DNA from: Kiloniellales bacterium
GTDB taxonomy: Bacteria > Pseudomonadota > Alphaproteobacteria > Kiloniellales > JAKSBE01
DNA: 64,000 nucleotides
Assembly (NCBI GenBank): GCA_030066685.1
Contig: JASJBF010000008.1
Location: 1 to 64,000, forward strand
Direction of reading: 5' to 3'
Shown: piece after piece, positions 22,036 to 36,849 of the stretch
How positions within the stretch are numbered: the first letter of the stretch is position 1
How the letters are laid out: each line of letters opens with the position of its first letter
Position numbers and translations under genes: made by a program
The notes under the pieces: model-generated
What the model was told of the DNA's origin: nothing
Database searches by the model: none
What the model saw: only the letters and a program-made list of their open reading frames with translations

Positions 22036-22063
22036 TCGCGGCGCCGCGCCCCGCGCCGATCAG
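22032..22063. terminator. Candidate bidirectional terminator between convergent genes
   Basis: CTGATC at 22032-22037 and GATCAG at 22058-22063 pair across a GC-rich centre that can extend the stem. The structure overlaps both stop codons of convergent genes. There is no T-run on either side, so factor-independent termination is uncertain. Confidence 0.35.
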
Positions 22064-22941
22064 GACGCGCCGTCCAGGGCCTGGCGCATGGCGTGGCCGA
22101 TCAGGTTGGCGCTCTCGACCACGATGACTCCCGCCTTCTCCAGGGCCCGGATCTTGTCCATGGCATCGCCCTGCCCCAGCAGGTCGACGGTCCCGGCATG
22201 GCCCATGCGGCGCTCCGGCGGTGCGTTCATCCCGGCGACGTAGGCGACCACCGGCTTTTTCGGGCGGCGGTCCTCCAGGAAGGCAGCGGCGTCCTGCTCC
22301 GCACGGCCGCCGATCTCGCCGATCAGGACGATCCCCGCCGTCTTGGGGTCGGCCAGGAAAAGCGCCAGGCAGTCGACGAAGTCCAGGCCGTGGACCGGGT
22401 CGCCGCCGATGCCCAGGGAGGTCGACTGGCCCAGGCGGAAGCGGGTGGTCTGGGCCACCGCCTCATAGGCCAGGGTGGCGGAGCGCGAGGCGATGCCGAT
22501 GCGCCCCGGCTTGTGCGGGCGATCCGGCATGACGCCGATCCGGCAGGCCTCCGGCGTGATGATGCCGTAGGAGTTGGGCCCGATGACCCGGGTCTTGGAT
22601 CCGGCCAGGGCCTGCTTGACCCGCACCATGTCGAGCACCGGCACGCGCTCGGTAACGCAGACCACCAGAGGGATCTCGGCCTCGATGGCCTCGATCATCG
22701 CCGCGGCGGCCTGGGCCGGCGGCACGAAGACCCCGGTGGCGTCCGGCCGGGTCTCCGCCACCGCCTGCGCGACGCTGTCGAAGACCGGCAGGCTCAGGTG
22801 CGTGGAGCCGCCCTTGCCGGGCGTGACGCCGCCGACTACCCGGGTGCCCGAGGCGATGGCCCGCTCGGCCATGCGGGTCGCGGTGGCGCCGGTCAGGCCT
22901 TGAAAGACGACCCGCGTGTCTTGGTCGACCAGGATGCCCAT
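22060..22941 (-). CDS. Succinyl-CoA synthetase alpha-like CoA ligase subunit
   Basis: A 293-residue protein of the SucD family, the subunit that binds CoA and carries the phosphohistidine. His248 lies in RRMGHAGTV, exactly at the family site; the CoA-binding domain shows FQGLTGATATRM. Differences from E. coli SucD occur at usually conserved points: GPNSYG where SucD has GPNCPG, and SRSATLAYE where it has SRSGTLTYE. The acid substrate may therefore not be succinate; malate (MtkB type) or another short diacid is possible. The ATG at 22941 shares one base with the beta-subunit stop (TGATG), implying coupling. It is the last gene of a two-gene unit with a GntR operator upstream of the beta gene. 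Confidence 0.88.
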   Translation of the reverse strand: MGILVDQDTRVVFQGLTGATATRMAERAIASGTRVVGGVTPGKGGSTHLSLPVFDSVAQAVAETRPDATGVFVPPAQAAAAMIEAIEAEIPLVVCVTERVPVLDMVRVKQALAGSKTRVIGPNSYGIITPEACRIGVMPDRPHKPGRIGIASRSATLAYEAVAQTTRFRLGQSTSLGIGGDPVHGLDFVDCLALFLADPKTAGIVLIGEIGGRAEQDAAAFLEDRRPKKPVVAYVAGMNAPPERRMGHAGTVDLLGQGDAMDKIRALEKAGVIVVESANLIGHAMRQALDGAS

Positions 22942-24113
22942 CACGCGCCTCCCGCCTGGGCCAGCCGCAGCGCTTCGTCGACGGCCTCGCCCAAGTCGTC
23001 GAAGACGGCGGCGGGGACGCCCTGGTTGCGCAGGGTCATCTCGCCCAGCTCCTTGGCGGTGCCGGCGCCCCGGAAGACGATCGGCAGCTTCCGCGCCGAG
23101 GTCCGATAGGCCTCCGCCACGCCTTCGGCAAGGGTGTCGCAGCGCAGGATGCCACCGCCCATGGCGTTGACCAGGATGACCCGGACCCGCGGCGACCGCA
23201 GCAGGATGCCTAGGCCCTCGGCGATCTGGGCGCCGCTGGCCACCGGGCGCACGTCCATGAAGTTGGCCGGTTCGCCGCCGCGCCGCTTGATCATGTCGAT
23301 GGTCGCCAGGCAGAGCCCGGCACCGGTCACCATCAGGCCGATGTCGCCGTCCAGCCGGACGTAGTTCATCTCGAAGCGATGAGCCTCGCGCTCCTGCGGG
23401 TCGCTTTCGTCTTCGTCGCGCAGGGCTTCCAGCTCCGGGTGCCGGAAGAGCGCGTTGTCGTCGAGCACCATCTTGACATCGAGGACCGCCAGCTCCCCGG
23501 ATTTCGTGACCGCCAGAGGATTAAGCTCGATCAGGCTGGCGTCGAAGGCGAGAAAGGCCTTCCAGACCGCGGCGAAGACCCCGGCCGCCGCTTTGGCGGC
23601 TTCGCCGGCGAGCCCGAGCCCTGCGGCCATGGCGGCAAAGTCCGTGTGTTCGGGGTCCATCCCGGCATCGGAGGAAAGGCGGACCAGGCCCTCCGCAGCG
23701 GCCAGGCCGGCCTCGACGTCCTCCCCGCCGGTCGGGCTGGCGATCAGGGTCAGGCAGCCTGCCGCGCGGTCGACCAGGGCGGCCAGGTAGATTTCCCGCT
23801 CGATCTCGACGGCCTTCTCGACGTAAACCGACGTGACCAGCAGCCCTTCGCGGCCGGTCTGACCGGTGACCAGCGGTCGGCCCAGGAGCTCGCGCGCGGC
23901 CTCGGCCACCGTCTCGCGCGATTCGGCGAAGCGGACGCCGCCGGCCTGCTTCCGCCGGCCGGCGTGGATCTGGGCCTTGACCGCCCAGCTCCGGCCGCCC
24001 AGGACCTGGGCCAGGGCCGAGGCCTCCTCGGGCGTCGTCGCCACGCCGCCCTGCGGGCTCGGCAGGCCGTAGTCGCGCAGCAGGCTCTTGGCTTGGTGTT
24101 CGTGGAGGTTCAT
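22941..24113 (-). CDS. Succinyl-CoA synthetase beta-like CoA ligase subunit
   Basis: A 390-residue ATP-grasp subunit. N-terminus NLHEHQAKSLLRDYGLPSP and KAQIHAGRRKQAGG are family-typical. The C-terminal half diverges where SucC and MtkA are nearly invariant: MVTGAGL (Thr263 for Asn), DVRPVASG (residues 288-294) in place of DVGGGA, and NAMGGGILRCD (316-326) with one extra residue compared with NIFGGI.RCD. These lie in the domain that meets the alpha subunit active site, suggesting an altered acid substrate. A GTGGTATACCAC operator sits about 93 bp upstream of the ATG, the same as for tctC and the GntR regulator, so this ligase belongs to the oxalate-linked regulon. Confidence 0.88.
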   Translation of the reverse strand: MNLHEHQAKSLLRDYGLPSPQGGVATTPEEASALAQVLGGRSWAVKAQIHAGRRKQAGGVRFAESRETVAEAARELLGRPLVTGQTGREGLLVTSVYVEKAVEIEREIYLAALVDRAAGCLTLIASPTGGEDVEAGLAAAEGLVRLSSDAGMDPEHTDFAAMAAGLGLAGEAAKAAAGVFAAVWKAFLAFDASLIELNPLAVTKSGELAVLDVKMVLDDNALFRHPELEALRDEDESDPQEREAHRFEMNYVRLDGDIGLMVTGAGLCLATIDMIKRRGGEPANFMDVRPVASGAQIAEGLGILLRSPRVRVILVNAMGGGILRCDTLAEGVAEAYRTSARKLPIVFRGAGTAKELGEMTLRNQGVPAAVFDDLGEAVDEALRLAQAGGA

Positions 24114-24205
24114 GGCCGTCCTCCCGGCTTGCGTTCCGAAGCGCGCCATCCCCGGCCCGAACACGGAAGTTCGCACTCGGCGGCCCCTTCGTCGCACTCT
24201 GGTAT

Positions 24206-24217
24206 GTGGTATACCAC
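24206..24217. promoter_or_regulatory. GntR-type operator upstream of CoA ligase genes
   Basis: The 12-bp perfect palindrome GTGGTATACCAC. It contains TGGTATACCA, found also at 27582-27591 and 35405-35414, and fits the T.GT..AC.A pattern bound by FadR/VanR-type GntR regulators. It lies between the tctA stop and the start of the beta-ligase gene (24113). Confidence 0.7.
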
Positions 24218-24299
24218 GATTTCGGCGCCAAAGCAACCTCTTCGAACCCTCGGCCTCGGCCCGCCGGTGTTCGGGTCGGAACAGGACTTCGCCCGTGGT

Positions 24300-25805
24300 T
24301 CAGCCCGCCTTCCGAAGGCGCCGCGCGAGCGTCTTGAACAGCGGCAGGAAGATCAGGATCAGGGCGATGATCGTGATCGGCCCGGCGATCGGGCGGTTGA
24401 TGAAGATCATGGGGTCGCCGTTGGAGATCAGCAGGGACTGCCGCAGCGCGGGCTCCGCGATCGGCCCCAGCACGATCGCCAGCACCGCCGGCGCCAAGGG
24501 ATAGTCGAGCTTGCGCAGCAGGTAGCCGCCGGCACCGAAGATCAGCATCAGCCAGACGTCGTGCATCTTCTGGGTCGGCGCGTAGCCGCCGACTAGGCTG
24601 AGCACGAAGATGATCGGTGCCAGGATGGTGAAGGGCATCTTCAGCATCCAGAGAAAGGCCGGAATGAAGACGATGTTGATCAGCACCGCGAAGAGGTTGG
24701 CGGCGTAGAGGCTGGCGATCAGGCCCCAGACGAACTCGGTCTGGTCGACGAAGAGAAGGGGGCCGGGGACCAATCCCCAGATCACCATGCCGCCCAAAAG
24801 GATCGCCGTGGTCGGCGAGCCCGGAATCCCCAGGGTCAGCATCGGCAGCATGGCGCCGGTCGAGGCGGCGTTGTTGGCGGCCTCCGGCGCGACCACGCCC
24901 GAGACCTCGCCCTTGCCGTAGTTCTCCGGCGTCTTGGAGATCATCTTGGCGACGCCGTAGGACATCAGGGAGCCCGGCGTGGCGCCCGCTGCGGGCAAGA
25001 TGCCGACGAAGAATCCGAGAAGGGAACTGGACATGGCGACCTTCCAGGTGCCCAGCAGTTCCTTCAGGTTGTTGAGGATGCGATCGACCGTGATCACCGC
25101 CTTCGACATCATGGAATCGCCTTCGGTCTTCTCGATGGTCCAAAGCATCTCGCCGATGCCGTAGATGCCGATCGCCAGGACCAGGAAGTTGATTCCGCTC
25201 ATGAAGCCGATGATGTCGAAGAAGATCAGCCGCGGCTCGCCGCTCATGATGTCGAGGCCGACCGCGCTGAAGACCAGCCCGATGCAGATCGAGAAGATGG
25301 TCTTGGGGATGTCGTCGCTGCCCAGGCCGACGAAGGTGGCGAAGGCCAGGAGCATCAGGGCGAAGATCTCCGGATCGCCGAAGTCGAGGGCGATGCTGGC
25401 CAAGGCGGGGGCGAAGCCGGTGAAGAGTACGATCGAGATCGTGCCGCCGAAGAAGGAGGCGAGGGCGGCCGCGACCAGAGCCTTGTCGGCCTCGCCTCTC
25501 AACGCCAAGGGACGGCCATCGAAGGTCGTCGCGACCGCCGTCGAAGCGCCGGGAATGCCGAGCATGATCGAGCTGATGGCGCCGCCGTACATGGCGCCGT
25601 AGTAGATGGCCGCCAGGAAGATCATCGCCGAGGTCGGGGGGACCAGGAAGGTCATCGGCAGCAGGATCGCCACGCCGTTGACGGACCCGAGGCCCGGCAT
25701 GGCCCCGATGAAGAGCCCGACCACAACGCCCAGGATGACGAGCCCCATGTTCAGGGGATCGAAGGCGATGAGGAAGCCGTCCGTCAGGTGCTGCAAGATT
25801 TCCAT
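24300..25805 (-). CDS. tctA: Tripartite tricarboxylate transporter, large membrane subunit TctA
   Basis: A 501-residue permease with about 10-12 helices. The family motif GxxxGxxPGLG is present as IGAMPGLGSVNG near residue 35, with the second repeat GILPAAGATPGSLMSYGV near residue 270 and the GIPGSPTTA segment. TctA forms the channel of a secondary, binding-protein-dependent importer for carboxylates. It is the last gene of tctC-tctB-tctA, about 90 bp after tctB. The start ATG 25805 gives the standard N-terminus (a leading hydrophobic loop then VVVGLFIGAMPG). Confidence 0.93.
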   Translation of the reverse strand: MEILQHLTDGFLIAFDPLNMGLVILGVVVGLFIGAMPGLGSVNGVAILLPMTFLVPPTSAMIFLAAIYYGAMYGGAISSIMLGIPGASTAVATTFDGRPLALRGEADKALVAAALASFFGGTISIVLFTGFAPALASIALDFGDPEIFALMLLAFATFVGLGSDDIPKTIFSICIGLVFSAVGLDIMSGEPRLIFFDIIGFMSGINFLVLAIGIYGIGEMLWTIEKTEGDSMMSKAVITVDRILNNLKELLGTWKVAMSSSLLGFFVGILPAAGATPGSLMSYGVAKMISKTPENYGKGEVSGVVAPEAANNAASTGAMLPMLTLGIPGSPTTAILLGGMVIWGLVPGPLLFVDQTEFVWGLIASLYAANLFAVLINIVFIPAFLWMLKMPFTILAPIIFVLSLVGGYAPTQKMHDVWLMLIFGAGGYLLRKLDYPLAPAVLAIVLGPIAEPALRQSLLISNGDPMIFINRPIAGPITIIALILIFLPLFKTLARRLRKAG

Positions 25806-26440: not shown

Positions 26441-27433
26441 TTACAGGGCCCCCATCTTGGCCAGCATCTGCTTGTGGATCTCGCGCTCCTTCAGCCAGTA
26501 GTCCTTGAGCGCCGCGCCGGTCAGGAACTCACCCTGAAGGCTCTTCTTCTTCCGATAGTCCTGCCACTCGGAGGACTCGAAGACCTTCTGGAAAAGCGCC
26601 TGGTAGTAGGCGGCCGCCTCGTCGCTCATGCCCGGGGCACCGACGACGCTGCGCTGCATGAAGTAGACGAACTCGTTACCCAGCTCGCCAAAGGTCGGCG
26701 CGTCGGGAAACATCTCCAACCGCTTTGGCGTGAAGGCGGCCAGGGGCACCGTCGTGCCGGCGGCATAGAAGCCTTCCTGCTCGGAGGGGTTGTTGACCGT
26801 GGAGTTGGCGTGCTTGCCGGCCAGCTGCTTGGCCACCTTGCCGCCGCCCTTGTAGGGCACGTACTTCATCTTCAGGCCATAGGCCGCATTGAGGAAATCG
26901 GTCAGCAGCTGGTCTTCCTGCAACTTGCCGGTGCCGGCCATGATCCAGCCGTCGCCGGCCGCCTTGGCCGCCTTGACGAAGTCATCGACGTTCTTGATGC
27001 CGGAGTCCTTGTGGACCCAAAGGAGGAAAGTGTCCTCGGCCATGCGCGCGACCGGCGTGAAGGCCTCGATGTCGACCTCCAGCTTCGGCTGCCGCAGTGG
27101 CGTGGTGTAGAAACTGTTGAGGGTCACCATGATGGTGTGATTGGGATCCGACTTGGCCTTGTCCTTGAGGTAGACCAAGGCCTCGGCGCCCGAGCCGCCA
27201 GGCTTGTTGATCGGCGTGAGCGGCTTGGCGGCCCAGCCGTTCTTCTCGATGACCGTCTGCATCAGCCGCGCCATCTTGTCGGCACCGCCGCCCTTGCCGG
27301 CCATGATCACGAACTCTACGGGCTTCTTGGGCTCCCAGGCGGCGGTCGCCGCGCCGGGCAGCGTAAAGGACGCAACCGAGCCAAGAGCAACGGCAGCAGC
27401 CAGCCCCAGAAGGTGTCTTCTCGTCTTCGCCAT
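26441..27433 (-). CDS. tctC: Tripartite tricarboxylate transporter substrate-binding protein TctC (Bug family)
   Basis: A 330-residue periplasmic receptor with a signal peptide (RRHLLGLAAAVALGSVASFTLPGAATA). Bug-family marks include PVEFVIMAGKGGGADKMAR, the ligand loop region KPLTPINKPGGSGAEAL, and KYVPYKGGGKVAKQLAG. It captures a small carboxylate for TctAB. The ATG at 27433 gives the signal peptide directly; the frame is open upstream only by chance. A TGGTATACCA palindrome is centred about 150 bp upstream, tying it to the regulator at 34647. The ligand could be oxalate or a related acid; this is inference from the regulon. Confidence 0.92.
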   Translation of the reverse strand: MAKTRRHLLGLAAAVALGSVASFTLPGAATAAWEPKKPVEFVIMAGKGGGADKMARLMQTVIEKNGWAAKPLTPINKPGGSGAEALVYLKDKAKSDPNHTIMVTLNSFYTTPLRQPKLEVDIEAFTPVARMAEDTFLLWVHKDSGIKNVDDFVKAAKAAGDGWIMAGTGKLQEDQLLTDFLNAAYGLKMKYVPYKGGGKVAKQLAGKHANSTVNNPSEQEGFYAAGTTVPLAAFTPKRLEMFPDAPTFGELGNEFVYFMQRSVVGAPGMSDEAAAYYQALFQKVFESSEWQDYRKKKSLQGEFLTGAALKDYWLKEREIHKQMLAKMGAL

Positions 27434-27581
27434 GATTTGTCCTCCCAGACATCTTGCGCGTTCGTCGGTGCAGGCTTTCGCAACCGAGGAACGAGGTCGA
27501 GTATAGCGCCTCCTGCAGCTTTCAAAAGCGAGGATCGTCCTCTCGATTGCCCTCACCCGCACTCGGTCTCTTTTTGGCGTA

Positions 27582-27799: not shown

Positions 27800-28666
27800 T
27801 CAGTGGCAGAGCAGGACCGGGAGGTCGGATTCGTCAATTACATGTTGGGTCACCCCGCCCATGATCAGCTCCCGGCGCCGGCTCTGCCCGTAAGCACCCA
27901 TGAGCAGCAGGTCCGCGCCGGCCTCCCTGGTTGCCAGAAGCAGGGCCTGGCCGACCTCGCTGCCGCGGGCGGTCTGGCTGCGGACCTCGGCGACGATCCC
28001 GTGGTCGGACAGGTAGTCCCTGACCGCCGCCGGGGCCAGGGCCTCCTTGGTGCCCGTGGACACCGCAAGGAGCGTGACCTTGTCCGCCGCGGCCAGGACC
28101 GGCAGGGTGGCGGCGATGGCGCGGGCCGCCTCGGTGCTGCCGTTCCAGGCGACTGCGACGTGCGCGCCGAGCGGACCGGCGAGCGGCTTCGGAGGACAGA
28201 GCAGCACCGGGCGTCCGGACTCCAGCAAGGCGGCCTCCAGCGTGTTCAGGCCGAGGTTGCGGCTGTGGTCTGGCTGGGCGACGACGACGACGTCTGCGAG
28301 GCGGCCGAGCACCCCGACGATCGCGGCCTGTTTGCCGGTTTCCTCGCGCCAGGACACCGACATGCGGTCCCTCGGCCAGGGCCGCGCCGTGACGACCGTG
28401 AGCTGGTGGCGCCGGCAGTAGTCCTCGAAGAGCGTCTTGACGCGCTGCTCCTCCTCGTTGGCGAGGCTGCCGGCGGAGGCCGTGATCTCCTGCTTTAGGG
28501 CGGCCGGAACGAAGACTCCGAAGGGTAGGAGGTCCTCGGGGTTCGGACGGCAGTGGACGATGTCCAGGTGGGCGTCGAAGCGCCGTCCAAGCGCCAGGGC
28601 ATGGTTCAGCACCCCTTCGCCGAGGCCGTCGCCGCGCACCGGAACCAGGATCGTGTGTAGCGTCAT
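27800..28666 (-). CDS. Tandem universal stress protein (UspA family)
   Basis: A 288-residue protein with two Usp domains. The first starts HTILVPVRGDGLGEGVLNHALALG. The second starts GAHVAVAWNGSTEAARAIAATLPVL, and its C-terminal LLLMGAYGQSRRRELIMGGVTQHVI holds the G-2X-G-9X-G(S/T)-type nucleotide-binding loop. Usp proteins bind ATP and help in stress or energy shortage. It is the last gene downstream of fhs (90-bp gap) in the oxalate block and on the same strand, so it may be co-transcribed; its role there is unknown. The start at 28666 gives the standard N-terminus. Confidence 0.9.
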   Translation of the reverse strand: MTLHTILVPVRGDGLGEGVLNHALALGRRFDAHLDIVHCRPNPEDLLPFGVFVPAALKQEITASAGSLANEEEQRVKTLFEDYCRRHQLTVVTARPWPRDRMSVSWREETGKQAAIVGVLGRLADVVVVAQPDHSRNLGLNTLEAALLESGRPVLLCPPKPLAGPLGAHVAVAWNGSTEAARAIAATLPVLAAADKVTLLAVSTGTKEALAPAAVRDYLSDHGIVAEVRSQTARGSEVGQALLLATREAGADLLLMGAYGQSRRRELIMGGVTQHVIDESDLPVLLCH

Positions 28667-28756
28667 CTCGGCCTCCCCAGACCGTGGCCCGGCCAAGCGC
28701 TGGGCCTGGTTATTCTTCTCCTCCCGACGGGGCCGAAGACCTTGCTTCGGCCGGGT

Positions 28757-30430
28757 CTAAAAGAGCCCCTCGATCTCACCCGCCTCGTTAAGGTGGATCG
28801 CCTCCGCCGCCGGCACCCGCGGCAGGCCCGGCATGGTCATGATGTCGCCGGTGATGGCGACGACGAACTCGGCGCCGGCCGACAGCCTGACCTCCCGTAC
28901 GTTGACCTCGTGGCCCTCGGGCGCGCCCTTCAGGTTCGGATCGGTCGAGAAGCTGTACTGGGTCTTGGCCATGCAGACCGGAAAGTGGCCGTAACCGGCC
29001 TTCTCCCAGTCCGCGAGCTGGTTCCTGACCTTGCCGTCGGCGTTCACTGCCACGGCCCCGTAGAGCTTGGTCGCTACGGCCTCGATCTTCTCGAAGAGCG
29101 GCAGGTCGTCGGGGTAGAGCGGCTGGAAGTCCGCCTGGCCCGATTCCGCGAGCTCGACCACGTGCCGGGCCAGGGCCTCGGTGCCGGCCGAGCCGTCGGC
29201 CCAGTGCGAGGCCAGGATCGCATTGGCACCGAAGGAGCCGGCGGTCTCGCGCACGGCTTCCAGCTCGGCCTCGGTGTCGGAGATGAACTGGTTGATCGCG
29301 ACCACCGCCGGCACGCCGAAGGAGGTGACGTTCCGGATGTGCCGGGCCAGGTTCTCGCAGCCGGCCTTGACCGCCGCGACGTTCTCCTTGCCCAGGTCCG
29401 TCTTGCCGACGCCGCCGTGCATCTTCAGCGCCCGCACGGTGGCGACGATGACCGCGGCCGCCGGCTTGAGCCCGGCCTTGCGGCACTTGATGTCGAAGAA
29501 CTTCTCGGCCCCCAGGTCGGCGCCGAAGCCGGCCTCGGTCACCACGTAGTCGGCCAGCTTGAGCGCCGCCTTGGTCGCGGTCACCGAGTTGCAGCCGTGG
29601 GCGATGTTGGCGAAGGGCCCGCCGTGCACGAAGGCGGGGTTGTTTTCCAGGGTCTGCACCAGGTTCGGCATCAGGGCGTCCTTCAGCAGGACCGCCATGG
29701 GGCCGGGCGCCTTGAGCGCCGAGGCGCGGATCGGCTGCCGCTCGCGGGTGTAGCCGACGACGATGTTGCCGATGCGCTGGGTCAGGTCGTCCAGGTCGTT
29801 GGCCAGGCAGAAGATCGCCATGATCTCGGAGGCCACGGTGATGTCGTAGCCGTCCTCGCGCGGGAAGCCGTTGGCGACGCCGCCCAGGTTGCAGACGATG
29901 GACCTGAGCGCGCGGTCGTTCATGTCGACCACCCGGCGCCAGGCGACGCGGCGGGAATCGAAGCCCAGGGCGTTGCCCCAGTAGATGTGGTTGTCGATCA
30001 TCGCCGACAGCAGGTTGTGTGCCGTCGAGATGGCGTGGAAGTCGCCGGTGAAATGGAGGTTGATGTCCTCCATCGGCACGACCTGGGCGTAGCCGCCGCC
30101 CGCCGCGCCGCCCTTCATGCCGAAGCAGGGGCCGAGCGAGGGCTCCCGGATGCAGATCGCCGCCTTCTTGCCGATCTTGTTAAGGCCGTCGCCGAGGCCC
30201 ACCGTGGTCGTGGTCTTGCCTTCGCCGGCCGGGGTCGGGGTGATCGCCGTGACCAGGATCAGCCTGCCGTCCTCGCGGCCCTGCAGCGACTTGATAAAGT
30301 CGTAGGAAACCTTGGCCTTGTGCGGACCGTACTGCAGCAGGTGCTCGGCGGGGATGTCGATCTTGGCGCCGACCTCGGCAACCGGCTGCATCGACGCTTC
30401 GCGGGCGATCTCGATGTCGCTCTTTGGCAT
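28757..30430 (-). CDS. fhs: Formate-tetrahydrofolate ligase
   Basis: A 557-residue enzyme that makes 10-formyl-THF from formate, ATP and THF. The P-loop [21 protein letters not shown] (about residues 64-84), the block [17 protein letters not shown] and the C-terminal [18 protein letters not shown] are conserved. Full length, so probably active. It sits just downstream of the formyltransferase-fold gene, frc and oxc on the same strand, so formate released from formyl-CoA can feed one-carbon metabolism. Confidence 0.97.
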
Positions 30431-30511
30431 GGCCTTCCCCTCGTCCTTTTCTGTCTGCGGCGGGTATGCAGGCGATGCCGATTTCCGCCGTTCCTGATGG
30501 TTCGGCGCCCC

Positions 30512-31426
30512 TCAGCCGCCAAAGCGGCTTCCGACCTCGACGCCGGCCGCAGCCGCGAACTCGCTGGCCGCGATCTTGCCAGCACCCGCCGGCCGCACTT
30601 TCTTGACCAGAATGGCGCCCTCGGCTGCGGCCACGGCGACACCTTCCTCGGAGACCGCGACAACGTCACCGGGGCTGCCCGAGGCCGCGACCTTGGCGGA
30701 GTCGAAGATCTTGACCTCCTGGCCGTTCAAGGTGGTCCAGGCGCCGGGCTGGGGATTGGTGCCGCGGATCAGGTTGTAGACCTCGTCGACCGGCTTGGAC
30801 CAGTCGATCTCGGCGTCGGCCTTGCGGCACCAGCTCTCGTAGGTCGCCTTGCCGTGGTCCTGCACCCTGCGCGGCGCCTTGCCATCGCGCACCAGGTCCA
30901 GGGACTCCAGCATGGCCGCGACGCCCATCGGGAAGAGATGATTGAAGTAGAGGCTGCCCAGGGTGTCGTCGGGGCCGATCTCGACCTCTTTCTGCAGCAG
31001 CACCGGGCCTTCGTCCAAGCCCTCGTCCGGCCAGAAGATGGTCAGGCCGGTCTTGGTCTCTCCCATGATGATCGGCCAGTTGATCGAGCTCGGGCCGCGG
31101 TGCAGGGGCAGCAGGGAGGGGTGATACTGGAAGGTCCCCAGGCGCGGGATGTCGAGCACGTTCTGCGGCACGAAGAGGGTCACGTAGGCCATGATGCAGA
31201 CGTCGGCGTCGAAGCCCTGCATCAGCTCCGCCGCCTCCTCGGTCTTCCAGGACGCGGGCTGGTGCAGGGGCAGGCCCTTCTCCAGCGCGAAGGTCTTCAA
31301 GGGATCCTCCGGCCGGCCTTCCTTGTCCGGCGCGCAGAACACGCCGACCACGTTCTCCCCGCGCTCGATCAGGGCTTCGAGGACGGCCTTGCCGAAGGCT
31401 TGTTGGCCGTGGACGACGATGCGCAT
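30512..31426 (-). CDS. Formyltransferase-fold protein resembling the 10-formyl-THF hydrolase domain of FDH
   Basis: A 304-residue protein similar to the N-terminal domain of 10-formyltetrahydrofolate dehydrogenase (ALDH1L), without the carrier and dehydrogenase domains. The catalytic His102 in YHPSLLPLHRGPSSINW and Asp138 in GLDEGPVLLQ have a constant 4-residue offset from His106/Asp142 of rat FDH. The C-terminal part has a small barrel resembling Fmt (PGAWTTLNGQEVKIFDS). Such stand-alone proteins may hydrolyse 10-formyl-THF to formate and THF, or transfer a formyl group to another acceptor. Located between fhs and frc. True methionyl-tRNA formyltransferase is expected elsewhere, near def. 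Confidence 0.85.
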   Translation of the reverse strand: MRIVVHGQQAFGKAVLEALIERGENVVGVFCAPDKEGRPEDPLKTFALEKGLPLHQPASWKTEEAAELMQGFDADVCIMAYVTLFVPQNVLDIPRLGTFQYHPSLLPLHRGPSSINWPIIMGETKTGLTIFWPDEGLDEGPVLLQKEVEIGPDDTLGSLYFNHLFPMGVAAMLESLDLVRDGKAPRRVQDHGKATYESWCRKADAEIDWSKPVDEVYNLIRGTNPQPGAWTTLNGQEVKIFDSAKVAASGSPGDVVAVSEEGVAVAAAEGAILVKKVRPAGAGKIAASEFAAAAGVEVGSRFGG

Positions 31427-31474
31427 GGTGCTTCCTTCCCCTGTCGGATCTCTGGCTCTTGGCGGTTTGCCTCG

Positions 31475-32749
31475 TCACTCGGCCGCTTGCGCCGTAGGTG
31501 CGCCGATGGCACCCGATTCACGGATGCTCTCGACCTCTTCGTCGCTGTAGCCGAGGACTTCGCTCAGGATCTCCTCGGTATGCTCGCCGAGCAGGGGCGA
31601 GCGGACCACCTCGGCCGGCGAGTCGGAGAGCTTGATCGGGTTGCCGACGGTCAGATACTTGCCGCGGGTCGGGTGGTCGACCTCGACGATGGTCCCGGTC
31701 GCGCGCAGGCTCGGCTCCTCGGCCAGCTCCTTCATCGACAGGATCGGCCCGCAAGGGATGTTCAGCGGGTTGCAGGCCTCCATGACCTCGAACTTGGTCT
31801 TGGTCTTGGTCCACTCCTCGATGGTGTCGAAGATCTGCGGAATCTTGTCGAGCCGGGCCTCGGGCTTGGCGTAGTCCGGGTCGTCCTTCCACTCGGGCTT
31901 GCCGATCAGATCGCAGATGTTGCCCCAGACCGCGGCCTGGGTGATGAAGTAGACATAGGCGTTGGGGTCGCTCTCCCAGCCCTTGCACTTGACGATCCAG
32001 CCCGGCTGGCCGCCGCCGGAATCGTTGCCGGCCCGCGGCGTGGCGTCTCCGAAGGGGATCCCCTGGCCATACTGGCTGTACTCCTTCAGCGGCCCGTGCT
32101 GCAGGCGTTGCTGGTCGCGCAGCTTCACCCGACAGAGGTTGAGGACGCCGTCCTGCATGGCCGCCAGGACCTTCTGGCCGCGGCCCGACTTCTCGCGCTG
32201 GAAGAGGGCGGTGACGATGCCGAGGGCCAGGTGCAGACCGGTGCCGGAGTCGCCGATCTGGGCGCCGCTGACCGTGGGCGGACCGTCGAGGAAGCCGGTG
32301 GTCGAGGCGCCGCCGCCGGTGCACTGGGCGACGTTCTCGTAGACCTTGCAGTCCTCGTAGGGCCCTGGCCCGAAGCCCTTGACCGAGGCGTAGATCATCC
32401 GCGGGTTCAGTTCCTGGATCCGCTCCCACCCGAAGCCCATGCGATCGAGCGCGCCAGGGGCGAAGTTCTCGACAAGGACGTCGCAGGACTTGACCAAGCG
32501 CTCCAGGACCTCCTTGCCTGTTACGTTCTTGGTGTTGAGCGTGAGCGAACGCTTGTTGTGGTTCAGCATCGTGAAGTAGAGGCTGTCGACATCCGGGATG
32601 TCGCGGAGCTGACCGCGGGTTGCGTCGCCGACGCCGGGGCGCTCCACCTTGATCACGTCGGCGCCGAACCACGCCAGCAGCTGCGTGCAGGTCGGCCCGG
32701 ACTGGACGTGCGTGAAATCCAGGATACGAACACCTTCAAGAGCTTTCAT
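31475..32749 (-). CDS. frc: Formyl-CoA:oxalate CoA-transferase
   Basis: A 424-residue family III CoA-transferase. It swaps CoA from formyl-CoA to oxalate, making oxalyl-CoA. The catalytic Asp167 lies in [11 protein letters not shown], close to Asp169 of the Oxalobacter formigenes enzyme. The flexible glycine loop, GGGQPGW near residue 255, is also present. The N-terminal block [31 protein letters not shown] is diagnostic for Frc. Located between oxc (upstream, 43-bp gap) and the formyltransferase-fold gene, all on the minus strand. Confidence 0.95.
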
Positions 32750-32792
32750 CGCATGCTCCTGTGATTGACTGGGTTGACCCGGCGGAGCCGGC

Positions 32793-34538
32793 CTACTTCT
32801 TGGACACCACGCTCTGGGGGTTGAGATTGCCGATGCGGCCGCTTTCGGTGCCGGCGTTCTCGTCGATGACGGCGTTGACCAGCGAGGGCTTCCCGGAGTC
32901 CATGGCCTCGTTCACGGCACGGCGCAGCTCGTCCGGAGAGGTGGCGTAGTAGCCCTTGCCGCCGAAGGCCTCTATCATCTTGTCGTAGCGGGCGTCCTTG
33001 ACGAAGACCGTGGTCGCGACATCCGGGCCGCCGGCGGGATTGACGTCCGAGCCGCGGTAGATGCCGCCGTTGTTGAAGACCACCACGCAGATCGGCAGGT
33101 CGTAGCGGCAGATGGTCTCGACCTCCATGCCGGAGAAGCCAAAGGCGCTATCGCCCTCGACCGCCAGCACGGGGTGCCCGGTCTCCACGGCGGCGGCGAT
33201 GGCCTGTCCCATACCGATGCCCATGACGCCCCAGGTGCCGACGTCCAGGCGCTTCCTCGGCTTGTGCATGTCTATGATGCTGCGGGCGAAGTCGAGGGTG
33301 TTGGCGCCCTCGTTGACCAGGATCGCGTCGGGGCGCTCGGCGATGACGCCGCGCAGGACGCCCAACGCGCCGTGAAAGTCCATCGGCACGTTGTTGTTCT
33401 GCAGCTTCGGCGCCATGCGCTCGATGTTGGCCTGCTTCTTAGCCTCGACGGCGCCGGTCCAATCGGCCGGCGGCGGGGCCCAGCCCGCCTCCATGCCCTC
33501 GAGCAGGGCGGAGACGCAGGAGCCGACGTCGCCGACCAGGGGCGCGGCGATCTCGACGTTGCTGTCCATCTCCTTTGGCTCGATGTCGATCTGGACGAAG
33601 CGCTTGGGCTGGCCGCCCCAGGTCTTGCCCTTGCCGTGCGAAAGCAGCCAGTTGAGCCGGGTGCCGATCATCAGGACGACGTCGGACTCCTTCAGCACCA
33701 GGGAGCGCGCCGGCCCTGCCGACTGCGGGTGCGTGTCGGGCAGAAGGCCCTTGGCCATGCTCATCGGCAGGAAGGGAAAGCCGCTCTTCTCCACGAGCGC
33801 GCGAATCTCCGCGTCGGCCTGGGCATAGGCGGCGCCCTTGCCGAGGATGATGAGCGGCCGCTCGGCGCGCTTCAGGACCTCGAGCGCGCGCTGGACCGCG
33901 TCCGGCGCCGGCAGCTGCCGCGGCGCCGGGTCGTTCACCTTGACCAGGGATTGGCGTCCGGCCTCGGCGTCCATGACCTGGCCAAGCAGATTGGCGGGGA
34001 GGTCGAGATAGACGCCCCCCGGCCGGCCGGACAGGGCGGAGCGAATGGCCCGCGCGATGCCGATGCCGATGTCCTGGGCGTGGAGGACGCGGTAGGCCGC
34101 CTTGCAGAGGGGCTTGGCGATGGCCAGCTGGTCCATCTCCTCGTAGTCGCCCTGTTGCAGGTCGACGATCTCGCGCTCGGAGGAGCCGCTGATCAGGATC
34201 ATCGGATAGCAGTTGGTGGTGGCATGGGCGAGCGCGGTCAGACCGTTGAGAAATCCGGGCGCCGACACGGTCATGCAGACGCCGGGCTTCTTCGTCAGGA
34301 AGCCGGCGATGGCGGCCGCATAGCCGGCGTGCTGTTCATGCCGGAAGGACAAGACACGCATGCCGGCGGCCTGCATGTAGCGGCCCAGATCGGTGATCGG
34401 GATTCCGGGCACATTGTAGATCGTTTTGATGTCGTTGAGCTGGAGCGCATCGATGACGAGGTGGAACCCGTCCGTCAGCGAGCCCGGTTCGGCGGCTTCC
34501 TTGGTCTCGGCCTCAACGCTTTGTGCGATTGCCGACAT
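32793..34538 (-). CDS. oxc: Oxalyl-CoA decarboxylase
   Basis: A 581-residue thiamine diphosphate enzyme that converts oxalyl-CoA to formyl-CoA and CO2. The N-terminal Pyr domain has the activating Glu in [11 protein letters not shown]. The C-terminal PP domain holds the GD..N-type diphosphate/Mg motif: [31 protein letters not shown]. Length and the start at MSAIAQ match known Oxc; the frame upstream of 34538 is non-conserved. The gene is first after gntR in the same direction, so the regulator and the pathway probably share a transcript. Confidence 0.95.
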
Positions 34539-34646
34539 TTCAATCTTCTCCCCAATACCCTGGCGGCAGCACATCGGCTGGCCGTCTTGTTGTCTGCCGT
34601 GGCCCCGAGACGGAGCGCCGCGCGTTGCGGCGACCCCCGGCACGAC

Positions 34647-35336
34647 TCAGTCCAGATAGTCCACGTTCTCTTCGATGTGCTTCGCGAGGTTCATGGTGTG
34701 CTCGCGGACCAGCCGTTCGGCCAGCTCCGCGTCGCGGGCTTCCAGCGCCTCGATGATGTGCATGTGATCGATGATCGAGCGCTTGGCGCGGTCCTTTTCG
34801 CCGATGGTCCGGGCCCGGATGCCCTTCATGTGCAGGAACAGGCCTTCGGCCGTCTCCTTGAGCAGCGCGCAGCCGCTCATCTCGAGGATCGCCTGGTGGA
34901 AGTCGATGTTGCGGTCGGAGTACTCGTCCATCCGGGCCTGGATCTGACCGTTCTCGAAGGTGGCGAAGAGCTTGCGCAGCGAGGCGATCCTTTCGTCCGA
35001 CGCGGTCTCGGTAATCAGCCGTGCGGCCATGCTTTCCAGCGCCGCCCAGACCGTGATCATCTCGAGGATCTCTTTCTTGGTCTTGCGCACGATGAAGACC
35101 CCGCGCCGGGGGATCACGGTGACCAGGCCCTCCTGCTCGAGCCGGGCGAGCGCCTCGCGGATCGGCGTCCGGCTGATGCCGAGCTGCTCGGATAGCTGGC
35201 GCTCGTCCAGCTTGAGCTGGGCATCGTCGGCATAGATGTTCATCGAGGTGATGCCCTCCTTGAGCACGTCATAGATGTGCTCCTTCAGGCTGAATCGGGC
35301 CTCGATGGGTTGAACCACAAGCTGTCGCGGCATCAT
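34647..35336 (-). CDS. GntR family transcriptional regulator (FadR/VanR subfamily, FCD domain)
   Basis: A 229-residue regulator. The N-terminal winged helix (residues 17-85) includes DERQLSEQLGISRTPIREALARLEQEGLV and PRRGVFIV. The C-terminal FCD domain has the metal-binding residues in DRNIDFHQAILEMSGC, and RSIIDHMHIIEALEARDAELAERLVREH. Such proteins sense small organic acids; an oxalate-pathway metabolite is likely from context. A GTGGTATACCAT palindrome lies 68 bp upstream of its own start, so it is probably autoregulated and drives the oxc-frc-fhs operon from there. It is also likely to act at the matching sites 24206 and 27582. Confidence 0.92.
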   Translation of the reverse strand: MMPRQLVVQPIEARFSLKEHIYDVLKEGITSMNIYADDAQLKLDERQLSEQLGISRTPIREALARLEQEGLVTVIPRRGVFIVRKTKKEILEMITVWAALESMAARLITETASDERIASLRKLFATFENGQIQARMDEYSDRNIDFHQAILEMSGCALLKETAEGLFLHMKGIRARTIGEKDRAKRSIIDHMHIIEALEARDAELAERLVREHTMNLAKHIEENVDYLD

Positions 35337-35403
35337 GCTGCTATCACCCTAGGACCGAGGTATCCAGGGCATCCTGCCCGGACCCGCCATTCGCTCGATT
35401 GCT

Positions 35404-35415
35404 GTGGTATACCAT
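35404..35415. promoter_or_regulatory. GntR-type operator upstream of the gntR-oxc-frc operon
   Basis: The core TGGTATACCA at 35405-35414 is flanked by GCT..AGC (35401-35418), giving a longer dyad than the other two sites. It is 68 bp from the regulator start and 95 bp from the divergent TPR gene, so both could be affected. Confidence 0.7.
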
Positions 35416-35509
35416 AGCCCAAGTACCACAGCACGGCAACCGTATTCGCCGCCGCGGCGCGGACCCGCGGCTTGCCAGATCGTGCCGCCTTCGTCCAAGC
35501 TGGCCTGCC

Positions 35510-36169
35510 ATGGCAGCGCAGAAGACATCGCCGCAGGGCCTCGCAGCGGCCGATCTGGACCGTCTGGCGGCGGAAGCCCGGGCGGCCCTCTCGAAGGGCC
35601 GCTGGACCAAGGCCGAGACGGCCTTGCGGGACCTGATCGCGAGGCTGCCGGCGCCCCAGGCCTCGCTGCTCTACAACCTCGGCCTGGTGCTGAAACGCCA
35701 GGGCCGGCTGGAAGAGGCCCTGGCCGCCCTCGACGAGGCCTTGGCGCTGGACCCAGGGCATGCCAAGGCCCGTTTCGAGCGGGCCGCCGCCCTTGTGGAC
35801 CTGGAGGACTTCGCCGCCGCCTACGGCGGCTTCGCGACCTACCTCGAGGCCGCGCCGGAAGACCCGGACGCCCTGCTCAACGCCGCGCGCTTGGCGTTGA
35901 GGCTCGGAAGGGGCAAGGCCGCTTCGGTTCACGCCGAAGCCCTGGAACGGCAGAGCCCGGAGGATCCCGCGACGCTCTTGCTGCTGGCCGAGGTCGCCGC
36001 CGAGCGCGGCGAACAGGAGACCGCTGCACGGCATTTTGGGAGAGTCCTGCATAAGGGTTCGCCTGAGCTGCGTGCCGCGGCCTTGGCTGCCATGACCCAG
36101 CGTCCGAAAGGCCGGATCCCACTCGCCCTCGACCGGCTCATGTATCCGGGAGATCAGTCGGCCCGGTAG
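35510..36169 (+). CDS. Tetratricopeptide repeat protein
   Basis: A 219-residue soluble protein made of TPR-like helix pairs. Visible repeats are 'ALSKGRWTKAETALRDLIARLPAPQASLLYNLG', 'LVLKRQGRLEEALAALDEALALDPGHAKARF' and 'ALVDLEDFAAAYGGFATYLEAAPEDPDALL', with the usual W/L/G/Y/A/F/A/P spacing. No signal peptide or extra domain. It probably mediates protein contacts; partner unknown. ATG 35510 was chosen over an upstream TTG. It is divergent from gntR and its 3' end overlaps a convergent gene by 16 bp. Confidence 0.8.
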   Translation: MAAQKTSPQGLAAADLDRLAAEARAALSKGRWTKAETALRDLIARLPAPQASLLYNLGLVLKRQGRLEEALAALDEALALDPGHAKARFERAAALVDLEDFAAAYGGFATYLEAAPEDPDALLNAARLALRLGRGKAASVHAEALERQSPEDPATLLLLAEVAAERGEQETAARHFGRVLHKGSPELRAAALAAMTQRPKGRIPLALDRLMYPGDQSAR

Positions 36170-36849
36170 CGCTTGCGATAGGCGCCGGGATCGGCCTTCA
36201 GGGCCTCCTGCACCTCCAGGTGCTGCGCCAGCTCGGCCTCGTCGAAGCTTGCGAAGTCGAGCTCCAGCGCTTCGCGCGGCACCGGGAAGGCCTGGGCGAC
36301 CGGGGTGCCCTTGGGCAGGCGCCCCTCGAAACCGGGGTCGGTCCAAAGCGCCGGGAAGTGCACGAAGCCGCCGGCGAAGTGGTCGCAGTCGACCCGGCCG
36401 GTCAGGGTCCGGAAGGGCAGGTCCTCGCGGTTGAACGGATGGGTGAAGAGCATGGCCCAGCCCTCGGGCAGGGTGACCGACCAGAAGTTGGTGAACTTGA
36501 CCACGAAGTGCCCGGGGTCGCCGAAGGGCGCGCCGGCGAGCTGCTCGGGCAAGTGAACCCCCAGGGGCGAGCGGCTGAGGCGGCTGTGCTCCAGCAGCGG
36601 CAGCTCGCTGTCCCAGGCGAAGACGCCGTCCGCGATGCGCAGCTCGGCGGCCAGCGGCATCAGCACGCCGTGGCGCAGGGCGTCGAGGAAAGGCGGGCAC
36701 TGCTTGACGCTGCGGACCTTGGCGCCGAGCAGAGCGCTCTCGGCTTCGGCCGGCATCCGCTTCAGCCAGTCCGGCAGCCCCTCCGCGGCCGGCTTCGGCC
36801 GCGGCAGGTGGGGCTCAAGCTCGGGCAGGCAGCGGAACCGGAGTCTCAT
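36154..36849 (-). CDS. DUF6065-like hypothetical protein
   Basis: A 231-residue soluble protein. The central block VKFTNFWSVTLPEGWAMLFTHPFNREDLPFRTLTGRVDCDHF, then VHFPALWTD and GTPVAQAFPVPRE, resembles a family I recall as DUF6065, which has 'N.W.I.TP.GYS.LF..P.N'-like motifs; the match is from memory. Function unknown. The ATG at 36849 lies inside the 3' end of the permease gene (35-bp overlap, same strand), so it may be the last gene of the Pot-type importer operon. A GTG just before it (36852) is another possible start. Confidence 0.7.
   Translation of the reverse strand: MRLRFRCLPELEPHLPRPKPAAEGLPDWLKRMPAEAESALLGAKVRSVKQCPPFLDALRHGVLMPLAAELRIADGVFAWDSELPLLEHSRLSRSPLGVHLPEQLAGAPFGDPGHFVVKFTNFWSVTLPEGWAMLFTHPFNREDLPFRTLTGRVDCDHFAGGFVHFPALWTDPGFEGRLPKGTPVAQAFPVPREALELDFASFDEAELAQHLEVQEALKADPGAYRKRYRAD

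Follow-up and report, generated by a model that had tools for sequence, protein, structure and literature searches.

A free-standing FDH-type formyltransferase in a bacterial oxalate operon: a proposed formyl-CoA:tetrahydrofolate formyltransferase

The oxalate locus and its formyltransferase gene

The window, i.e., the whole stretch of DNA that was analysed (64,000 nucleotides of an assembly of 5.96 Mb in 73 contigs), encodes a formyltransferase of 304 amino acids, here termed FTL, that lies on one strand with oxc and frc upstream and with fhs downstream, the products of these three genes each exceeding the curated cut-off of their family (Table 1). The initial annotation had placed the reading frame exactly, leaving its strand unstated (it is the minus strand), and had located it beside fhs, frc and oxc, which is borne out. 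Both Pfam domains, Formyl_trans_N and Formyl_trans_C, are present and the protein stops after the latter, so that it carries no fused carrier or aldehyde dehydrogenase domain and no enoyl-CoA hydratase-like C-terminal domain of the HypX/HoxX type. The reading frame is not a product of chance, since whole-length orthologues (54–92% identical in amino acids) are present in 33 of the 97 other relatives. An open frame of 1340 amino acids on the plus strand (28742–32764), antisense to fhs, FTL and frc, is taken to be a shadow ORF.

Within the ORF of oxc the homology starts only at about residue 39, hence the true start of this gene is probably near 34529. The cluster is accompanied by genes of a tripartite tricarboxylate transporter, whose TctA subunit is a candidate oxalate importer, and by a SucD/SucC-like pair that may furnish the CoA thioester by which oxalate is activated. 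An ORF of 455 amino acids (35333–36700, minus strand) without a Pfam or NCBIfam match separates the GntR gene from a polyamine-type ABC transporter; its counterpart at locus L033 occupies the same place and is 67% identical.

Table 1. Features of the oxalate locus (window positions) and of compared loci
Feature	Position	Strand	Basis
FTL, stand-alone formyltransferase of 304 aa, FDH-type	30512..31426	-	ATG start; ORF, Pfam, PDB sequence search
Codon of catalytic His102 (HPSLLP motif)	31121..31123	-	position computed from ORF
Codon of catalytic Asp138 (GLDEG motif)	31013..31015	-	position computed from ORF
Codon of Gln100, two before catalytic His	31127..31129	-	alignment
frc, formyl-CoA:oxalate CoA-transferase, directly upstream of FTL	31475..32749	-	TIGR03253, 731.5 bits (cut-off 504.2)
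oxc, oxalyl-CoA decarboxylase	32793..34643	-	TIGR03254, 997.4 bits (cut-off 739.4); PDB 7ayg, 1e-292
fhs, formate-tetrahydrofolate ligase, directly downstream of FTL	28757..30430	-	NF010030, 919.2 bits (cut-off 652)
GntR/FCD regulator, head of conserved cluster	34647..35336	-	PF07729, PF00392; recurring position
Universal stress family protein (USP), often next in cluster	27800..28696	-	PF00582; recurrence in relatives
TctA, tripartite tricarboxylate transporter large subunit	24300..25805	-	PF01970
TctC-type binding protein	26441..27562	-	PF03401
SucD/SucC-like ADP-forming CoA ligase pair	22060..24236	-	recurs near FTL in part of relatives
Substitute thiamine (ThDP) enzyme, examples	L046 4611-6338; L064 10161-11837		in place of Oxc, frc and FTL retained
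Oxalate plus serine-cycle island	CP031587.1 (pLA6_002) 49965-90284		locus L164

Affinity to FDH and signature residues

When FTL was compared with the sequences of the PDB, the hydrolase domains of FDH/ALDH1L1 came first (1.4e-63 to 2.6e-62), followed by Fmt (1.3e-51) and, weakly, by HypX (2.9e-14). In a tree of 28 sequences FTL and FDH are grouped with moderate support (85/87) and Fmt with ArnA stands apart (98/93); FDH branches among the FTL lineages without resolution, and HypX and ArnA form long branches. The top NCBIfam model for FTL is fmt (TIGR00460), yet the score of 180.2 bits is lower than the cut-off of 201.5, and all five FTLs that were scanned fall below it (132.0–180.2 bits). The search, the tree and the score under the cut-off are thus in line with the earlier claim that the protein is of the FDH type rather than of the Fmt type. 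The AlphaFold2 model, a confident one (pLDDT 95.3, pTM 0.90), is equally close to Fmt and FDH (Z 35.5 and 35.2, respectively), and because of this tie the fold comparison was dropped as a discriminator.

Two further formyltransferase homologues are encoded by the genome. A canonical fmt is located on contig 14, adjoining a peptide deformylase gene, and scores 287.4 bits, which rules out that FTL is the only Fmt of the organism, a possibility that the initial annotation had named. The third homologue, on contig 20 (L003), is the N-domain of a HypX/HoxX protein (7.4e-179 to Aquifex HypX structures); its gene follows one for HypE, and a NiFe hydrogenase is therefore probably matured by this organism under oxygen as well. 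The PurU model (TIGR00655) was not among the NCBIfam matches of FTL at E 1e-3, and no PurU above the cut-off was found in the genome.

His102 and Asp138, which had been described as conserved, do not vary in alignments of 21 and of 40 sequences, and together with Ser104 they match the catalytic set His106-Ser108-Asp142 of FDH. The residues named for the THF site of FDH, i.e., Phe89, Arg114, Asp142 and Tyr200 (PMC4388273), align with Phe85, Arg110, Asp138 and Tyr196 of FTL, each of which is retained in 19 or in all of the 20 FTLs compared. At position -2 from the catalytic His, where FDH has Ile104, the 108 distinct FTLs (identical matched stretches merged, stretches below 45% identity excluded) contain Gln (89) or Cys (19) and in no case Asn, these counts, as well as those of co-occurrence given below, not being phylogenetically independent. 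Asn was found there in every Fmt (5/5), ArnA (1/1), PurU (3/3) and PurN (3/3) sequence checked, Ile in two FDHs and Val in the HypX of the same genome. For Fmt, ArnA and GART a crucial role of this Asn has been described, and the exchange of the FDH Ile for Asn left less than 10% of the hydrolase activity (PMC4388273). The formyl acceptor of the FDH hydrolase domain is reported to be a 4'-phosphopantetheine arm, with 10-formyl-THF as donor (PMC8748788), and the N-domain of HypX is credited in a review with the transfer from 10-formyl-THF to CoA (PMC12134894), as was proposed earlier (PMC6802093). Since FDH and HypX pass formyl to such acceptors, the classes without Asn may, in this small sample, be those whose formyl exchange involves a pantetheine thiol. 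The motif 'HP' after the His was also considered as a sign of a thiol acceptor and was dropped, because PurN sequences share it.

In comparison with known systems, FTL resembles FDH in the two-domain formyltransferase fold (37–39% identity over 288–289 residues in the structure alignment), in the His/Ser/Asp set, in the folate-site residues and in the joint grouping in the tree, but it is a stand-alone bacterial protein without carrier or dehydrogenase domain, has Gln or Cys instead of Ile and is encoded next to frc and oxc. With the N-domain of HypX/HoxX it has in common the lack of Asn; unlike HypX it has no enoyl-CoA-hydratase-like domain, the identity in the structure alignment amounts to 20–23%, and the Ser of the triad is described as replaced in HypX (PMC6802093). 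Fmt shares with FTL the fold, nearly the same length and both Pfam domains, and differs from it in reaching the family cut-off, in the Asn and in the GRGKK-type loop, which is about four residues shorter in FTL. An LDEG-type Asp motif and, as proposed for FTL, a folate substrate are common to FTL and PurU, although FTL gives no PurU match, has no Asn and coexists with PurU in five genomes. The locus itself is similar to the frc/oxc oxalate operons (e.g., E. coli yfdWU), to which FTL, fhs, a Tct transporter and often SucCD are added.

Gene order and co-occurrence in other genomes

Comparison of the conservation of the gene next to oxc and frc across genomes, which the initial annotation had suggested, was carried out in two sets, both including the own genome: 98 relatives, where the FTL matches span the whole gene and reach 1.5e-106 or better, and 398 genomes drawn from the phylum, where FTL was called at 1e-70 and the scoring was limited to at most five and four first-look candidates in each genome, because of which some presences may be missed. 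Among the relatives FTL is present in 34 and frc above the cut-off in 35; all 34 genomes with FTL contain frc, as does one (G067) of the 64 without it. In the phylum draw FTL was found in 10 and frc in 32 genomes, i.e., frc accompanies FTL in 10 of 10 genomes and occurs in 22 of the 388 that lack it, thus 22 of the 32 frc carriers have no FTL. Fisher tests of the association gave 1.4e-25 for the relatives and 2.6e-12 for the phylum draw, shared ancestry being ignored.

The gene fhs is also present in all 34 FTL-containing relatives vs. 38 of the 64 others, an excess that would also fit an Fhs-linked role. No fhs match, however, was found in five of the nine other FTL-containing genomes of the phylum draw (G242, G294, G384, G472 and G457), all of which are listed as 100% complete and the first four of which belong to one genus. 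Exactly these five contain PurU above the cut-off; in the own genome and in G140, G187, G372 and G404 fhs is present and PurU above the cut-off is not, the latter being missing as well from 57 of 58 genomes drawn, own included. Since five genomes combine FTL, frc and PurU and show no fhs, FTL follows frc and not Fhs or a hydrolase vacancy: it tracks frc and coexists with the dedicated formyl-THF hydrolase PurU. The suggestion that FTL serves to balance Fhs therefore does not hold as a general purpose.

The gene order was read in 80 named loci. These are the best 80 of at least 578 relatives, with a bias to close ones, and some of them belong to genomes of the 98-relative set; a gene was counted as frc, fhs, oxc or the substitute enzyme only where its identity exceeded 55%, and loci with too short a flank were dropped (7 with less than 1600 nt upstream, 12 with less than 700 nt downstream, 20 with less than 4500 nt upstream). 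In relatives the order that recurs is GntR, thiamine enzyme, frc, FTL and fhs, often with USP, TctCBA and SucCD nearby. Directly upstream of FTL and on the same strand, frc is found in 63 of the 73 loci with at least 1.6 kb upstream; nine of the other ten have no frc anywhere in the fetched flank. Directly downstream, fhs is found in 48 of 68 loci with enough flank. The 60 loci with 4.5 kb upstream contain oxc (34), a different thiamine enzyme (17) or neither (9), and never both. The order oxc-frc-frc-FTL is present in G242, G294, G384 and G472 (46–47% GC in the fetched stretches), and in G242 the first base of the FTL ORF is the last base of the frc ORF.

Several other arrangements were observed. 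At L082 (7777–9909) FTL is placed directly behind a sulfopyruvate-decarboxylase-like alpha/beta pair of thiamine-enzyme genes, at L088 it is divergent from frc-oxc, and at L134 (9001–14500), where the fetched flank contains no frc, it precedes genes for a PaaK-like CoA ligase and for xanthine-dehydrogenase-like proteins. The distance between frc and FTL is about 167 kb in G457, and in G025 and G372 the two genes are on separate contigs. G033 has two FTL matches (loci L053 and L065), one whole (66% identity) and one a piece at a contig end (81%), because of which it either contains two FTL copies or is a mixed assembly. Neighbours of 712–719 amino acids were considered as fused CoA ligases, which is true for one of three scanned, L161 of the FTL-less G067; L153 has an autotransporter instead and L156 a trypsin-like protease, and the fused ligase was therefore dropped as a companion of FTL.

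Canonical oxc is present in 14 of the 34 FTL-containing relatives. Of the 20 genomes without it, 19 carry an enzyme that is 69–100% identical to the substitute thiamine enzyme of L046, and the remaining one, G036, is 72% complete with a truncated contig. The L046 enzyme is 23–26% identical to Oxc and its nearest PDB structures are 2-hydroxyacyl-CoA lyases, while Frc of the genomes with the substitute still scores above the oxalate-Frc cut-off. A function as 2-hydroxyisobutyryl-CoA lyase is not supported, as the position of the acid/base Glu, a role described for Glu493 (PMC13327070), reads Ala by eye in an alignment where Glu493 was placed by an assumed numbering offset.

The only plasmid match at 1e-60 was found on pLA6_002 of Paracoccaceae bacterium La 6, where a gene annotated as fmt_2, methionyl-tRNA formyltransferase, encodes an FTL with 54.3% identity over query residues 1–279. 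The island around it is composed of ppc, sucCD, a GntR-type regulator, oxc, frc, FTL, fhs, TctB, TctA and a TctC-like gene, together with a ketopantoate-reductase-type (panE-type) gene, SHMT, glycerate dehydrogenase, folD and formate dehydrogenase; a label of argininosuccinate lyase is attached to the gene occupying the TctC position. For C. necator, a reductase of the ketopantoate-reductase type near frc-oxc was inferred from a deletion strain to be a CoA-acylating glyoxylate dehydrogenase (PMC7486775). The island is read as oxalate assimilation by the serine cycle, with formyl-CoA supplying 10-formyl-THF. Its fuller form is not general, since the reductase-type gene is near just 6 of the 80 named loci and absent from the window, across the 64 kb of which none of the serine-cycle genes of the plasmid was found except sucCD. 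In G404 (L155) frc-FTL lies beside genes for PEP carboxylase, a malic-enzyme-type protein, an HpcH/HpaI lyase and SucCD, with no oxc match in the fetched stretch.

Proposed reaction, alternatives and meaning

It is proposed that FTL is a free-standing enzyme moving formyl between formyl-CoA and THF, a reading to which we give a probability of roughly 0.58; its reaction, direction and pathway we infer from sequence, neighbourhood, co-occurrence, tree, signature residues and predicted fold. The reaction would be reversible (formyl-CoA + THF = 10-formyl-THF + CoA). Formyl transfer in either direction is somewhat better than an even prospect, and a net direction towards THF falls a little short of one. 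In the usual scheme of oxalate catabolism, formyl-CoA ends as free formate (PMC3720670). Oxc, judged by its family, would make formyl-CoA from oxalyl-CoA, Frc can spend it on activating the next oxalate with release of formate, and FTL would be the other exit. THF would occupy the conserved folate site, with His102/Asp138 and Ser104 polarising its formyl group or that of formyl-CoA, and the thiol of CoA would act as leaving group or acceptor, comparable to the 4'-phosphopantetheine thiol in ALDH1L1 and to CoA in HypX; no CoA site was identified in FTL. In oxalate-assimilating cells the likely direction would be to 10-formyl-THF and further to methylene-THF and serine, and Fhs, where present, would recapture the formate released by Frc. 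Formyl-CoA drained from the Frc loop would call for another oxalate activation, for which, as a guess, a SucCD-type ligase would possibly pay; in the introduction of one report succinyl-CoA is noted as an alternative donor to formyl-CoA (PMC12188714), and the SucCD pair would thereby gain a role.

One may ask if the same enzyme works in reverse, converting 10-formyl-THF (made by Fhs, or by FolD where fhs is missing) and CoA to formyl-CoA that primes or replenishes the Frc/Oxc cycle, similarly to the priming by acetyl-CoA:oxalate CoA-transferase YfdE that was proposed in E. coli. Such direction matches the one reported for FDH and HypX, a need for priming was argued in the case of YfdE (PMC3720670), and fhs is directly downstream at 48 of 68 loci and present in 34 of 34 FTL-containing relatives; even so it is unlikely, as five genomes with FTL show no fhs, which led to the rejection of Fhs-driven priming as a general rule, and the plasmid island with oxalate and serine-cycle genes fits assimilation instead. 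Formyl thioesters should, furthermore, exceed 10-formyl-THF in energy. Hydrolysis of 10-formyl-THF to formate and THF, as by the N-domain of FDH and by PurU, was among the roles offered initially and is disfavoured to the point of being quite improbable: the FDH-type sequence and the vacancy of the PurU role in nearly all genomes drawn, among them the own one, where a hydrolase would thus have room, would suit it, but next to fhs it would create a futile cycle, the five fhs-less genomes already possess PurU, FTL has neither a PurU match nor the Asn of the PurU sequences seen, and a hydrolase gives no reason for FTL to follow frc.

The association with frc would suit a formyl-CoA hydrolase or another folate-independent scavenger of formyl-CoA, which the retention of the folate-site residues makes very improbable. 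It is hardly to be expected, finally, that FTL serves as a second Fmt or as an N-formyltransferase acting on some other amine, despite the public label of the plasmid gene and a fold as near to Fmt as to FDH, for the scanned FTLs score under the fmt cut-off where the Fmt of the genome exceeds it, the Asn is missing in 108 of 108 and the GRGKK-type loop is shortened. Formyl transfer between formyl-CoA and THF, the remaining role put forward in the initial annotation, would thus be the best fit of the three. The novelty claimed for it is to be divided: the chemistry has a precedent in the N-domain of HypX, as reviewed (PMC12134894), whereas open PMC text searches, with most subscription journals outside their range, found at the level of titles, abstract openings and selected passages no description of a stand-alone formyl-CoA:THF transferase or of a formyltransferase in oxalate operons.

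A wider reading, which we hold tentatively, is that widespread, misannotated soluble formyl-CoA:THF formyltransferases link CoA-bound C1 units to folate without formate or Fhs. The formyl-CoA would derive from oxalate, to which thiamine enzymes standing in for Oxc in this operon would perhaps add a supply of their own. If this is true, oxalate assimilation would gain an Fhs-independent entry to C1 metabolism, a gene publicly labelled as tRNA formyltransferase would be explained, and synthetic C1 pathways that run on formyl-CoA would have a soluble tool at their disposal. It would also hint at the origin of the hydrolase domain of ALDH1L1, which may descend from the FTL lineage with the thiol-transfer chemistry retained.
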